From contig JAFYNH010000092.1 in assembly GCA_017549815.1 (NCBI GenBank), forward strand, positions 1 through 64,000: DNA of 64,000 bases. The letters run 5' to 3'. Below, one piece after another: positions 45,976 to 53,387 of the stretch. The DNA is from Selenomonadaceae bacterium. GTDB taxonomy: Bacteria > Bacillota > Negativicutes > Selenomonadales > Selenomonadaceae. The position numbers and the translations under genes were made by a program. The notes under the pieces were generated by a model. That model did not search any database and was not told where the DNA came from. It saw nothing but the letters and a program-made list of their open reading frames with translations. How positions within the stretch are numbered: position 1 is the stretch's first letter; the number at the start of each line of letters is the position of its first letter.

Positions 45976-47265
45976 TCAAAACTTTGTCGCAAATATAAAT
46001 GCCGTTACACCGTCAGTAGCAGTTTCGTCAACGTCGACTTGCAATAAACAACGCCAATCATCTGCAGGATACATGAGTTCATCCAAAAAAGTGGATGCTT
46101 CATTAGCTTCCAGCATATTAAGAAAGTCCACTCCTCCGATAAACACGAGCAGAGCTTTTTTGGCGTGCCGAATATCTTCAAGGAACAGCGGCGACTTCAA
46201 CGCATTTTTCACGGCTTGAATTGAATTATTTTCAGCGTCAAGACTTGTGCCGAACCCGATACACGCTCTGCCGAAATTTCCTATTGTTCTTGGAATCTCA
46301 GCAAAATCCATTCCGATAAGATTACCGCAATTTTTCTTAAGCGGAGCTATACTTGTCGCCATATTCACGACTCGATATATCGCCTCGTCGTTCGTCAAAC
46401 CAATCGCGTCGATTTTATCTTTCGGCAAGACTACCCACGTGCCAAAGTTGTCGGGAATATCGGCAAGGCGAACATCATCGGCGGTCGGACACAAAATCAG
46501 AGACGTTATCAGCAGATTTGACTGCTCAACAATTTTTGTGACCTTCTTGGCAAGTTCCAAATCCTCAACGTCCATAATCACAAACAGCCAGCTTGTTCCG
46601 ATAACAAAATGTAAAATTGGTGCTAAGAGGGCAAACGGGTTTTTCAAGTTGGCAATACTGTCTTGGGCAGAAACAACCAAGCGGTTAGGGAAAATATCAT
46701 CGGCGACCTTACCAAAATAATTCAAGGCACTTGCTCCCGTCTCGCCTATTCCCACAATCTTTACCCCCGAAAAGAATTTGTCGCGGAATTCATCTTCCCC
46801 ATTACAAAAATCAAAATTCGTAGCAAGCACAAACGCTGTCACGCCGTCACCGTAAGTTTCGTCAATAAGTACTTGCCGTAAAATATCCAAATAATCATCA
46901 GGATCAGGGTTAAAAAGTTCATCTAAAAAATTGGCGGCTTCATTTATCTTCATCATATCAACAAATTCACGACGGATCTTCATGACAAAAACAAGTAAAA
47001 CTTTTCTGGCACGTCGAATGTCCTCAACAAACAGCGGCGACTGCAACGCATTTTTCACGGCGGCAAGAGGGGCATTTTCAGCGTCAAGACTTTCGCCGAA
47101 CCCGATACATGCGCGTCCGCCATTTCCTATCGTCCTAACAACATCATCAAAATCCATGCCAGCAACATAGTTTCTTTCACGACGACTCAGTGAGACAATC
47201 CTGTTTACATCTGCGGGTGAGTGAATTTTGCTCATATTTACAGTCATAACTAGACTTACATTCAC
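45976..47265 (-). CDS. FtsZ-like protein with two C-terminal FtsZ domains and a degenerate GTPase domain
   Basis: A divergent FtsZ-superfamily protein of 429 residues (from GTG 47265). Residues about 37-151 and 319-429 are tandem copies similar to the FtsZ C-terminal domain (GMDFDDVVRTIGNGGRACIG and GMDFAEIPRTIGNFGRACIG). Residues about 168-310 resemble the FtsZ GTPase domain (GVKIVGIGETGASALNYF), but the GGGTGTG loop is missing (LFVIMDVEDLELAKK). GTP hydrolysis is therefore unlikely. The GTG start uses a GGGGAG site lying in the IS-type end upstream; ATGs at 47247 and 47235 lack sites. The first copy looks truncated at its N-terminus. Confidence 0.75.
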   Translation of the reverse strand: MNVSLVMTVNMSKIHSPADVNRIVSLSRRERNYVAGMDFDDVVRTIGNGGRACIGFGESLDAENAPLAAVKNALQSPLFVEDIRRARKVLLVFVMKIRREFVDMMKINEAANFLDELFNPDPDDYLDILRQVLIDETYGDGVTAFVLATNFDFCNGEDEFRDKFFSGVKIVGIGETGASALNYFGKVADDIFPNRLVVSAQDSIANLKNPFALLAPILHFVIGTSWLFVIMDVEDLELAKKVTKIVEQSNLLITSLILCPTADDVRLADIPDNFGTWVVLPKDKIDAIGLTNDEAIYRVVNMATSIAPLKKNCGNLIGMDFAEIPRTIGNFGRACIGFGTSLDAENNSIQAVKNALKSPLFLEDIRHAKKALLVFIGGVDFLNMLEANEASTFLDELMYPADDWRCLLQVDVDETATDGVTAFIFATKF

Positions 47266-47269
47266 GCTT

Positions 47270-47600
47270 TTGACACTCCCCAAAGGGGATTCTTGAGAAC
47301 ATAAATGCTCAAAGGCTGAGCCAAACAACCACTACACTGTCACCTTTCGGCTTCAGCTTACTTTTACTTATTTGTACCGTCCTTTCGTAGTATTTGCAAA
47401 ACACTTCTTTACACCCGTCACGATTCACTCAGTCTGGCGAATTAATCGCTAAGTGTCGCGCTGCGATGCGGGTGAGTGTATGGGGTGACCCCACTCCTAA
47501 ACAACTTCACTGTTTGCAACACACGAGCCGTTGATATTTTTCACGTTTTTGTTAAAGCGGAAGGCTAACCGCTATTTGTAGTTTAAATGATATGTTTTGA
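47270..47600 (-). mobile_element. Non-coding IS200/IS605-type element, possible omega-RNA
   Basis: On the - strand this gene-free stretch holds several hairpins (for example GAGTG-GGGT-C-ACCC near 47490, and AGTGTTT/AAATACT). It ends in CCCC-TTT-GGGG followed by AGTGTCAA, the same end as the tnpB element at 23186. No ORF lies inside. It resembles a transposase-dependent non-autonomous element or a free-standing guide-RNA locus; the distal boundary near 47600 is a guess. Confidence 0.45.
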
Positions 47601-49458: not shown

Positions 49459-50844
49459 TTACACCGCGCAGGCGTCATAGAGTTTTCTGAGAAATTTTCC
49501 GAACCCTTTAACCGTCGAATCGTATTTAAAAGGCTCCGTTAATCGATAAAATATTTCGTGAAGTGTCAACGTAGATTTATTGCCGTCAAGCGTCGCGAAT
49601 AATTTTTTATCTGTCAATCGCGCAGGATTAGCCTCGAAAAGCGCAGGATTTATCAAAAAAACTTCTCTACCGTTCAAAGTTTCGATTTGTTTAAGCCAAG
49701 CCGCGAACGCCTCAGCATAAAAATTAAAATTCACAATATCGGGCGCGGTAACGTCGATTCCGTCCAAAAAATCCACGAACCAAGGATATTTATAGGCTTT
49801 TGCATTGCCAGAAACTAAATCGGCGAGTACTGGCTTTATTAAGTGAACATACGCAAAAATAAATCGAGCAAATTGTACAAATAACTCACTCCGCGCAGGA
49901 AAGTCGCTCCAAGAAAATTTATTTTGCTCGTGACGGCAAATATATTTAAAGATTTTGGGAGATTTTATCGGTCGGGCAAAAAAATCTATCGCCGCCAATG
50001 CCGCATATAATTCTACAATGTGCGCCTCGTTTCGCTGATTAGCCGAACCTACAGAAAATTCTTTTACCGCCGTCATCACAGAATCTCCAACAAAATACGT
50101 CGCGTCGAAAAGATTTTCTTTCTCGGAATAATATTTCAATGCCGCCTTTGTGTTCGGCAAGAAATTTTCACTTCGCGCAAAGAGTTCATCTTGAATATTG
50201 GTCGGCGTGAAACTGAAATAAGGCAAAATCAACACCGCGCCGATAGAAATTCTGTCCGCATAATCCACTAAATTATTTTTCAGCAAACGGGCAATAGTAG
50301 GAAGTCCCGCCGCGCCCGTGCCACCAAAGACTGAACCAGCTAAAAAAATTTTAACGGAATCGCCCTCGCTAATGATTTTTTCAATCTGCGCGGTTAATTT
50401 TGAGCCTTCATCAAATTTTTTAGCCAAAACCGCCGCGCCTATCGACGGGTGCCCGCGAAATCCTTCATTTAAAGTTGTCTCGCGCTCCTTTTTAGTGTAA
50501 AGAACTTCGTAAAGCTTGCCGACTGCCGTATTGTTATGATGATAAAACTCAATCAAATCATCAAGCGTCTTGTCGTGCCCCGTCGGATTAAAAGGAAACG
50601 GACGAACGATTGAAATTTTATTCTTGAAAAGCGTCGTATCATTTCCAACAGAAAAATTCTGGAAAACGGCAAAATTATTCAGCGCAGTCGCCGTTCGTTC
50701 CAAATTTCCATTTCCAACGTCGGGATCTATCGCAGAAATAAAAAGTCGCTCATTTTCGGGCAAAAGTCCTGCTATGCAAAGGTGCGTTAAGCTCTCCATA
50801 ACCTTCGCGCCCGTCCCGCCGATTGAAATAAAATAAAAACTCAT
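49459..50844 (-). CDS. Tubulin-like GTPase family protein
   Basis: A 461-residue protein with tubulin-superfamily features. The N-terminal nucleotide loop is FISIGGTGAKVMESL (GGTG at residues 9-12), and a GGTGAAG signature at residues 174-180 (FLAGSVFGGTGAAGLPTI) matches the tubulin/FtsZ GTP-binding loop. The C-terminal half is helical and not recognised. It resembles the bacterial 'tubulin-like' (Tubulin_2) group, whose roles are largely unknown. It overlaps the preceding membrane-protein gene by 4 bases, the last member of a coupled cassette. Confidence 0.75.
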   Translation of the reverse strand: MSFYFISIGGTGAKVMESLTHLCIAGLLPENERLFISAIDPDVGNGNLERTATALNNFAVFQNFSVGNDTTLFKNKISIVRPFPFNPTGHDKTLDDLIEFYHHNNTAVGKLYEVLYTKKERETTLNEGFRGHPSIGAAVLAKKFDEGSKLTAQIEKIISEGDSVKIFLAGSVFGGTGAAGLPTIARLLKNNLVDYADRISIGAVLILPYFSFTPTNIQDELFARSENFLPNTKAALKYYSEKENLFDATYFVGDSVMTAVKEFSVGSANQRNEAHIVELYAALAAIDFFARPIKSPKIFKYICRHEQNKFSWSDFPARSELFVQFARFIFAYVHLIKPVLADLVSGNAKAYKYPWFVDFLDGIDVTAPDIVNFNFYAEAFAAWLKQIETLNGREVFLINPALFEANPARLTDKKLFATLDGNKSTLTLHEIFYRLTEPFKYDSTVKGFGKFLRKLYDACAV

Positions 50845-51329
50845 AATCTCCTCCCGAAAAGTTGCGCTCCAAGCGGCGTGTACTTAAAAGCAAGCGGCGT
50901 CGTGAAAATCGTCAGCAACCAATAGCCTATTCCGCTAAAAATCACTAAAAACAGCCCAAAAATTATCCCGTTCAGCTTTATTCCGAGAATCGGCGCGTAA
51001 AAATGCGGAATTCCTAAACTTATCGCCATTGACGCCATTAATAAAGCAAGCCAACAAATTCTTTTACCCGCCCCAGCAACGTCATCAATTTTAAATAAAA
51101 ATCTCGCCGCTAAAAACCAAATCAGCGCACAAAGTCCATTAAGCAAGCCCGTCGCCCGCGTCAATATAAAATATTTCTCCAGCCAACGCGAATAATTCAT
51201 ATTATCTGACGCCGTAGCTAGCGAATGCCCAGTTACGTTCGAGCCGAGATAATAAGCCGCCGCCGTGCAGAAAATTGTTACCGCCGCGATTAAAATTATT
51301 TTTATGATAGTCCGCGTCGTTCGATTCAT
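50841..51329 (-). CDS. Membrane protein of the tubulin-like cassette
   Basis: A 162-residue protein with about four membrane helices (near residues 8-28, 56-80, 88-108 and 115-145). No family is recognised. Its ATG overlaps the kinase-like gene stop (TAATG) and its stop overlaps the tubulin-like start (ATGA), so the three products are probably made in fixed proportion. It could anchor the cassette at the membrane. Confidence 0.7.
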   Translation of the reverse strand: MNRTTRTIIKIILIAAVTIFCTAAAYYLGSNVTGHSLATASDNMNYSRWLEKYFILTRATGLLNGLCALIWFLAARFLFKIDDVAGAGKRICWLALLMASMAISLGIPHFYAPILGIKLNGIIFGLFLVIFSGIGYWLLTIFTTPLAFKYTPLGAQLFGRRL

Positions 51330-51937
51330 TAAATTTCAGCCAACTTTCTTAGAAATTCTTCCGAAAATACACTTTTATAATCCGAACGCATTAAATCGAC
51401 AAATCGCGCCCAATATTTTCTTAGCCGCTTTAAAGTAAAGAAGTCAAAGTAATAGGGTAAAGGAATTGTCGACGCGCAACCGATATTGTCAATAATTCTT
51501 ACTCTGCGTTCGGTCGGAGAAATTTTTTGCACAAGATAATTTTCGAGGTCGACGCCCGCTAATAAAAATTTCTCGTCAAAGTAAGTTTTCTTGAAGTCTA
51601 ATAAGAGTTTCTCGGTTTCGGGCAAATTTTTTTTATCGGCAACGGTATCTTCAAGAATATCAAGCATTGTCTTAGAAATTTTGCCGTCAAAATCCAAAAC
51701 ACGTTCAAAAAGATAGCCTTTGCCCTTTGAAGTATCAACTTCGCCGAAATATTTTGTCAGGAGCGTCATTTTCTCTGCGCGGTCGCCAAGTGCTTTTCTA
51801 TAACGAAATTCCTTTTCCAAATCGGAATCGGGCATGGTGTGCAAAATTTTTATGCATAAATTTTTATCAGTCGGGTGCGCATAAACAGTTTTGTGATTTC
51901 CACTGCCCAAAAATAAATCGTCCGTCAAAATAATCAC
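51329..51937 (-). CDS. YrbL-like protein kinase-fold protein
   Basis: A 202-residue protein resembling the YrbL family of small kinase-like proteins. Features include the glycine-rich LGSGNHKTVYAHP, the lysine in CIKI, a catalytic-loop-like GVDLENYLV and the metal-binding-like RIIDN. These residues suggest phosphotransfer ability. The GTG at 51937 follows GAGGT and sits 1 base after the LCP stop; the longer open frame overlaps the LCP gene and has no site. Confidence 0.72.
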   Translation of the reverse strand: MIILTDDLFLGSGNHKTVYAHPTDKNLCIKILHTMPDSDLEKEFRYRKALGDRAEKMTLLTKYFGEVDTSKGKGYLFERVLDFDGKISKTMLDILEDTVADKKNLPETEKLLLDFKKTYFDEKFLLAGVDLENYLVQKISPTERRVRIIDNIGCASTIPLPYYFDFFTLKRLRKYWARFVDLMRSDYKSVFSEEFLRKLAEI

Positions 51938-51938
51938 G

Positions 51939-53387
51939 TTAATACCTCGTTTTCGGAGCTTCATCGCGTGTCGGCTCGTCAAAAGCTTCATCTACTTCGG
52001 GAAGCGTTCGCCGTTCAATGCGAGGTTCTTCATAATTACGCCTATCATTTGAACTTGTGCGTTCATCATCATAATTGCGCTTGTCATTTGAACTGGAGCG
52101 TTCGTCATCATAACTACGCCTGTCGTTTAAACTAGAGCGTTCATCATCATAACTGCGCCTGTCATTTGAACTGGAGCGTTCGTCATCATAACTGCGCCTA
52201 TCGTTTGAACTAGTGCGTTCGTCATCATAATTGCGCCTGTCATTTGAATTTGTGCGTTCATCATAACTGCGCCTGTCGCGGTCGTCATCTTGAACAATGC
52301 GGTCTCTGAAAGTCGAACGTTCTTCAACTGTGCGGCGTTGTTCGCGACTTTCTCGGACAGGTCTGCCAATATAATCCTCGCCGTCTGGAATATCTTTGGC
52401 ACCAGTCGGAATTGAATCGTTATATTCGCGGGCGTCACGTTCAAAACGTTCTCTTAAATATGGGTCAACGGCAATTCCCAGCGCATCGGCAACAGAAATT
52501 CGCAAAAGTTCAACATCAGGTATCCAATAACTGATTTCGTCAATGTAAAGCGGATAGCCGGGAACCATATCGGTTTCAAGCCCGTTTTGTTGCGCCGCTT
52601 TAAGCGAACCCGCTAACTCCAAAAGCTGCCGGAGCGACATATCGGTTTCAACGGCGTCAATAACTTCACGGACAATCTTAGGAATGCGCGGAACTATTTC
52701 GGGCGAAGTCACTTTATCCATACACGCCGCCATAAATGCCTGTTGACGTTTGACGCGCCCAATATCGCCTTCCGAATCACGATAACGGACATAAGTCACG
52801 GCAGTTTTACCGTCCATATGCTGTTCGCCGGGATATAAATCAATCACAAGTCCGCCGTCGTCATCCCAAGGGTCTTCGTAAAACATGCGCTTTTCAACAT
52901 CAATATCCACGCCGCCTATCGCATCAATAATCTTGACAAAACTGTTCGTGTTAATCAAAACGTAGTGATCAATGTCAATTCCAAGAAAATTTTCAACTGT
53001 CGACTCCGAAAGACTGACTCCGCCATAAGCAAACGCCGCATTAATTTTATCGTAGCCACGCCCGCGAATTTTGACGCGAGTATCACGCGGAATAGATAAA
53101 AGCGTCGCTTGGTCGAGGCGCGGGTCAATCGTCGCTATCATCATAGTATCAGAGCGTCCAACGTCATCTTCGCGCTTGTCGACGCCCATTATCAGAACAA
53201 TCGATTTATCTTTGGCTTTTATAAGCTCGGTTGTATCGTCTTTTCCGAAGATTTTCCCGTCGGGATTTCTTATGTCGAAAAAATCGGACGAGGCGAACAT
53301 TGCGCCCGCGACTGCCGAACCTATAAAGCACAGCATAAGAAAAATCATCGGCAAAATATTTCGTTTGGGTTTACCATTATTGTCCAA
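51939..53387 (-). CDS. LytR-CpsA-Psr (LCP) family protein with C-terminal repeat tail
   Basis: Membrane-anchored LCP phosphotransferase of 482 residues; the family links glycopolymers to the cell wall. After one N-terminal helix the LCP core shows GVDKREDDVGRSDTMMI, SIPRDTRVKI and VRYRDSEGDIGRVKRQQ, with the expected Asp and Arg residues. Residues 372-448 are six near-identical 12-13-residue repeats of the RRSYDDERSSSND type, highly charged. TTG start behind GAGGGTG. It leads the coupled cassette. Confidence 0.92.
   Translation of the reverse strand: MDNNGKPKRNILPMIFLMLCFIGSAVAGAMFASSDFFDIRNPDGKIFGKDDTTELIKAKDKSIVLIMGVDKREDDVGRSDTMMIATIDPRLDQATLLSIPRDTRVKIRGRGYDKINAAFAYGGVSLSESTVENFLGIDIDHYVLINTNSFVKIIDAIGGVDIDVEKRMFYEDPWDDDGGLVIDLYPGEQHMDGKTAVTYVRYRDSEGDIGRVKRQQAFMAACMDKVTSPEIVPRIPKIVREVIDAVETDMSLRQLLELAGSLKAAQQNGLETDMVPGYPLYIDEISYWIPDVELLRISVADALGIAVDPYLRERFERDAREYNDSIPTGAKDIPDGEDYIGRPVRESREQRRTVEERSTFRDRIVQDDDRDRRSYDERTNSNDRRNYDDERTSSNDRRSYDDERSSSNDRRSYDDERSSLNDRRSYDDERSSSNDKRNYDDERTSSNDRRNYEEPRIERRTLPEVDEAFDEPTRDEAPKTRY
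52044..52274. repeat. Coding 39-bp tandem repeat, about 6 copies
   Basis: Six tandem units (one of 36 bp, five of 39 bp) in the LCP gene encode the Arg/Asp/Ser-rich tail. High identity between copies suggests copy-number variation. Confidence 0.9.

Follow-up and report, generated by a model that had tools for sequence, protein, structure and literature searches.

A 64,000-nucleotide stretch of DNA from a Selenomonadaceae bacterium (GenBank assembly GCA_017549815.1, contig JAFYNH010000092.1, positions 1 to 64,000; hereafter, the window) contains four nearly fused genes, which encode an LCP (LytR-CpsA-Psr) glycopolymer transferase, a YrbL-family kinase-fold protein, a small membrane protein (TM), and a tubulin-like GTPase (TUB) (Table 1). 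The genome is a 2.77-Mb draft that appears to belong to the genus Quinella, whose members live in the rumen and have large, oval cells and a Gram-negative envelope (PMC9585023). A sequence-only reading of the window had proposed that the four genes form one system. Instead, TM and TUB are probably two of the subunits of a conserved module that is associated with the envelope and also includes a vWA lipoprotein, a giant ATPase with an actin fold, and an accessory protein; the genes for this module are dispersed in one clade of Quinella. The argument is based on the families and folds of the parts, on the gene order in many phyla, on the co-inheritance of the separated parts, and on the joining of TM and TUB to LCP and YrbL, which is derived and limited to that clade.

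The four genes in the window

All four open reading frames are present on the minus strand, and the junctions are as tight as the sequence-only reading had stated: there is 1 base between LCP and YrbL (if YrbL starts with the GTG at 51937), YrbL and TM meet in TAATG, and TM and TUB overlap in ATGA. This spacing is weak evidence for a functional relationship, because about 40% of co-directional neighbors are equally tight: the gap is 4 nucleotides or less for 17 of 44 such pairs in the window and for 26 of 61 pairs elsewhere in the genome. We therefore do not use the close spacing as a sign of shared function. Conservation of the block is stronger evidence. The four genes were expected to be neighbors in relatives, and within the genus, this holds for most close relatives, with nearly constant stop-to-stop distances. 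Most members of the clade have retained the block through changes of its flanks, and it is found in several flanking contexts. Also, ratios of nonsynonymous to synonymous substitution rates (dN/dS) of about 0.04-0.16 indicate purifying selection on TUB and TM.

Table 1. Genes of the block, with Pfam matches judged against the curated cut-offs
Gene	Product	Coordinates	Strand	Evidence
LCP	LCP (LytR-CpsA-Psr) glycopolymer transferase with a repeat-rich C-terminal tail	51939..53387	-	PF03816 (LytR_cpsA_psr), 159 bits (cut-off 24.6)
YrbL	YrbL-family kinase-fold protein	51329..51937 (GTG start; ATG at 51991 possible)	-	PF10707 (YrbL-PhoP_reg), 125 bits (cut-off 31.5)
TM	Small multi-spanning membrane protein, 162 amino acids	50841..51329	-	Hydropathy; homologs upstream of TUB; conserved tail
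TUB	Tubulin_2/FtsZl1-family GTPase, 461 amino acids	49459..50844	-	PF13809, 36 bits (cut-off 27)

In YrbL, the GxGxHK, CxK, DxxN, and DNIG positions are conserved across 26 relatives. TM was not assigned to any family by a Pfam profile search; its hydropathy indicates four to five hydrophobic segments (near residues 7-25, 55-84, 91-109, and 121-139), and its C-terminal tail, (F)KYTPxGA, is conserved. The LCP gene includes a 39-bp tandem repeat (6.4 copies, positions 52030-52277), which encodes a charged RRSYDDERSSSND-type tail.

TUB has a predicted tubulin fold

An AlphaFold2 model of TUB, built from 47 homologs (pLDDT 88.5, pTM 0.91), confirmed the earlier expectation of a tubulin fold: TUB is modeled as a tubulin/FtsZ-superfamily protein with an N-terminal GTPase fold, in agreement with its assignment to the Tubulin_2/FtsZl1 family. 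According to Foldseek, the best matches to the model in the PDB are FtsZ, CetZ, and tubulins. TUB aligns to FtsZ with a Z score of about 18 and a root-mean-square deviation of 3.0-3.4 across about 195 residues within positions 1-324 (VIA-align), although the structural matches have low global scores (TM-scores) and scarcely cover the C-terminal third. A sequence search for a solved relative returned nothing beyond a weak match to CetZ.

TUB contains a T1-like motif (GGTGAK) and a T4 motif (FGGTGAAG), both of which are conserved across phyla, and the T4 loop, S[VI]FGGTGA[AS]G, is present in nearly all homologs. In contrast, we did not recognize the T7 catalytic loop, NxDxx(D/E), by eye in either the alignment or the model, in which T7 itself was not superposed. 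A Pfam search also found no match in TUB to the canonical FtsZ domain FtsZ_C (PF12327), and no long coiled coil is apparent in the model of its 461 amino acids.

The window also encodes a degenerate FtsZ-like protein of 450 amino acids (45976-47328, minus strand), 2.1 kb from TUB, which has two matches to FtsZ_C but lacks a GGGTGTG loop. This gene is not kept beside TUB in the relatives that we examined. Elsewhere in the genome are three full-length FtsZ genes with GGGTG loops, as well as shorter FtsZ-like open reading frames that adjoin one of them (loci L258, L259, L260, and L261, on contigs C17 and C56). The FtsZ set of this giant-celled bacterium is expanded.

TUB and an actin-fold ATPase are adjacent in many phyla

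We compared the window to 61 named loci, all from outside its clade: these are from Selenomonadaceae, Phascolarctobacterium, Poribacteria, Nitrospirae, Acidobacteriota, Aminicenantes, Cyanobacteria, Pelagibacteraceae, Cloacimonadota, Clostridia, and one euryarchaeal metagenome-assembled genome. Across many phyla, the gene order is a vWA-type lipoprotein, TM, TUB, an actin/HSP70-fold ATPase of about 1,100 amino acids, and an accessory protein. In 59 of the 61 loci, the ATPase gene directly follows TUB; of the other two loci, one is at a contig end and one has an insertion. TM was recognized immediately upstream of TUB in 44 loci, and the vWA gene was recognized upstream in 45. S. salina (L224) has vWA, TM, TUB, and the ATPase in that order, with two extra open reading frames ahead of the ATPase. 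In some loci, MotA/ExbB-type and OmpA-type genes follow the module, and related clusters of MotA/ExbB-type and OmpA/MotB-type genes recur in Poribacteria and other groups. Such genes also follow the module in Phascolarctobacterium (L071, 13791-16246), where the match to ZorA is weak and the match to ZorB is clear.

Several lines of evidence link the large ATPase to the actin superfamily. Profile searches match MreB and FtsA; a structural model (pLDDT 81) matches MreB, MamK, FtsA, and HSP70 (Z scores of 17-19) across about residues 576-1000; and the motifs DFGTSxT, DIGxGT(T/S)D, and GGNG are conserved. The ATPase is thus predicted to have the phosphate 1, phosphate 2, and adenosine motifs of the actin superfamily as well as its fold, and therefore the module appears to pair a tubulin-type NTPase with an actin-type NTPase. 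TUB seems to belong to an ancient bacterial gene set that is built around this pairing. It is unusual for NTPases from the tubulin and actin superfamilies to be paired in operons outside cell division. The vWA protein has no Pfam annotation (by Pfam search), and we identified it only by the conserved MIDAS-type motif (DxSxS/DxTxS), which is present in most homologs; many of the homologs also have a lipobox-like cysteine.

The partners of TUB are retained at separate loci

The partners of TUB have not been lost from the window's genome, as both are on other contigs. The ATPase is on contig C39 (L086, 9666-13382), where it is fused to the accessory domain, which is a separate protein elsewhere. 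This fusion recurs in related genomes. The vWA lipoprotein is encoded on contig C33 by a gene that has a 4-bp overlap with ilvN. Neither partner was visible to the sequence-only reading, since both are on contigs other than that of the window. That reading was right about the parts and about their linkage in close relatives, but not about the boundary of the system.

To quantify co-occurrence, we used 37 genomes from the same genus. TUB and the ATPase agree in 35 of them (25 have both, 10 have neither, and 1 and 1 have a single gene; P = 3e-7, which ignores shared ancestry). TUB and vWA agree in 34 (24 with both, 10 with neither, and 2 and 1 with a single gene; P = 2e-6, with the same caveat). 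Every mismatch comes from a genome that is incomplete. What flanks the ATPase gene varies between genomes, and the TUB, ATPase, and vWA loci are unlinked in the clade, so the agreement is not due to physical linkage. The joint inheritance of three separated loci is independent evidence that the parts cooperate: the ATPase and the vWA protein are lasting partners of TUB.

The link to LCP and YrbL is derived

In a tree of TUB, every LCP-linked sequence falls within a clade of 28 (support 100/100) that is nested among ATPase-linked lineages. The LCP-YrbL-TM-TUB arrangement is thus derived and is confined to one clade of Quinella. The proposal of an LCP system controlled by phosphorylation is not supported. 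A paralog of YrbL adjoins a PIG-L deacetylase and an O-antigen ligase (Wzy_C), which suggests that the YrbL in the block serves envelope glycan work rather than the control of TUB. In a genome from outside the LCP-linked clade (G032), a YrbL gene that is cut by the contig end adjoins the tubulin-actin module but is on the other strand (L066, 8137-8541).

We considered two other explanations for the block. First, the four genes might be a functional unit in which filaments of TUB guide the attachment of glycopolymers by LCP, with YrbL as a regulator, so that a tubulin-actin module was recruited to the assembly of surface glycans in Quinella. The persistence of the block at near-constant spacing in changing surroundings is consistent with this, as are the envelope-glycan contexts of LCP and of the paralog of YrbL and the adjacent YrbL gene in G032. 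However, the arrangement is restricted to one clade, and even there, some members have TUB without an adjacent YrbL or LCP gene, without TM, or with none of the others nearby (L057, L059, L072, L079, L151, and L156). Furthermore, the original function probably persists, because the genome still encodes the ATPase and vWA partners at other loci. We consider this explanation unlikely.

Second, the adjacency of LCP and YrbL to TM and TUB might reflect a shared promoter and nothing more, with TUB being a regulatory GTPase that does not polymerize. The high frequency of tight gaps in this genome favors this explanation. Tight coupling to unrelated genes does occur in the genome, as seen in the overlap with ilvN that couples this module's vWA gene to ilvBN, and the lack of a recognized T7 motif would fit with a nonpolymerizing TUB. 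But the block has long been retained as its flanks changed, and we view this explanation as quite improbable.

A proposed role in the envelope

If TM and TUB are subunits of the dispersed module, as we favor, then TUB and the actin-fold ATPase may form a cytoplasmic scaffold or polymer that is driven by nucleoside triphosphates. TM would hold this scaffold to the inner membrane, perhaps via its conserved C-terminal tail, and a connection across the envelope would couple the scaffold to the vWA lipoprotein. The coupled scaffold could then drive a surface machine that spans the envelope or determine its position. LCP and YrbL would most simply be an envelope-glycan pair that shares transcription with TM and TUB in this clade.

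The best candidate for the trans-envelope machine is the type IV pilus, given data from Synechocystis PCC 6803. Disruptants of sll0445 (Tubulin_2), sll0446 (FtsA-type), and sll0447 are impaired in phototaxis, and the corresponding proteins co-fractionate with pilus assembly proteins (PMC9880817). The genes sll0443-sll0449 have been treated as one predicted transcription unit (PMC2633013). The module is spread over many phyla, and cyanobacterial phototaxis is the one phenotype that we found for it in the open-licence literature.

Several considerations weigh against this picture. Because its T7 loop was not recognized, TUB may not be a cytomotive GTPase. The Synechocystis genes are regarded as orthologs of this module on the strength of annotation and gene order rather than a comparison of their sequences. 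The window's genome does contain a pilT-family gene, but nearly all genomes of the genus have pilT, whether or not they have TUB, so its co-occurrence is uninformative and we set this line of support for the pilus link aside; the presence of pilT is permissive only. The P values for co-inheritance do not account for shared ancestry. Finally, because most clade members keep the block despite several changes of its flanks, the link to LCP and YrbL may be functional.

With these reservations, we tentatively suggest a broader idea, which has somewhat less than an even chance of being correct: bacteria of many phyla might have a machine that combines a tubulin-type GTPase with an actin-type ATPase, is anchored by TM, and connects to a vWA lipoprotein (some lineages would add ZorAB-like stators). 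Such a machine might drive or position trans-envelope structures, and in Quinella it might have been split and coupled to surface-glycan genes. The split in Quinella also delimits a set of genes whose products could be tested for interaction and polymerization.

Comparison to known systems

A role in defense against phage or in other conflicts, which the sequence-only reading had raised, is very improbable: tubulin and HSP70 proteins have been tied to DO-GTPase conflict systems (Kaur et al. 2020; PMC7159879) and the Phascolarctobacterium version includes ZorA/ZorB-type genes, but PADLOC had no match for any of the four proteins or for the tubulin, ATPase, and vWA homologs that we tested, the gene content is constant across phyla rather than variable, and the Synechocystis mutants have a motility phenotype. 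The DO-GTPase/GAP1 systems resemble the module in combining tubulin, HSP70-type, and vWA proteins. However, those systems are defined by DO-GTPase and GAP1, neither of which was identified among the recurrent neighbor clusters here (no profile of either was run). Similarly, the likeness to the Zorya stator (ZorA/ZorB) lies in the MotA/ExbB-type and OmpA/MotB-type proteins beside the module in Phascolarctobacterium; ZorA/ZorB-type genes are not in the Quinella loci, and no other Zorya genes were identified.

Two further related systems have been described, so the statement that no such set was known does not hold for the TUB part. First, the FtsZl1/Tubulin_2 (PF13809) operons were described by Makarova and Koonin in 2010 (PMC2875224). 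These share with the module a Tubulin_2 domain with T4, a vWA partner, and membrane proteins, with OmpA proteins in some operons, and T7 was likewise reported as not recognizable in FtsZl1. The vWA gene was found in 45 of our 61 distant loci, and in the window's genome, it is at a separate locus. The majority of the 2010 members have an extended coiled coil and a helical C-terminal domain, whereas TUB, at 461 amino acids, has no long coiled coil in its model; the actin/HSP70-fold ATPase partner is not mentioned in the parts of that paper that we consulted; and the module here, unlike those operons, is split and joined to LCP and YrbL. Second, in sll0443-sll0449 of Synechocystis PCC 6803, a Tubulin_2 gene is followed by an FtsA/actin-type gene, as in the module (PMC9880817, PMC2633013). 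That cyanobacterial cluster is contiguous and has no LCP or YrbL, and its phenotype is in phototaxis. Beyond the papers cited here, a search of open-licence papers found none that joins tubulin, actin, and vWA proteins in one system. Overall, TUB is a member of a known family whose conserved module is little known, and what is new is the split of this module and its coupling to LCP and YrbL.

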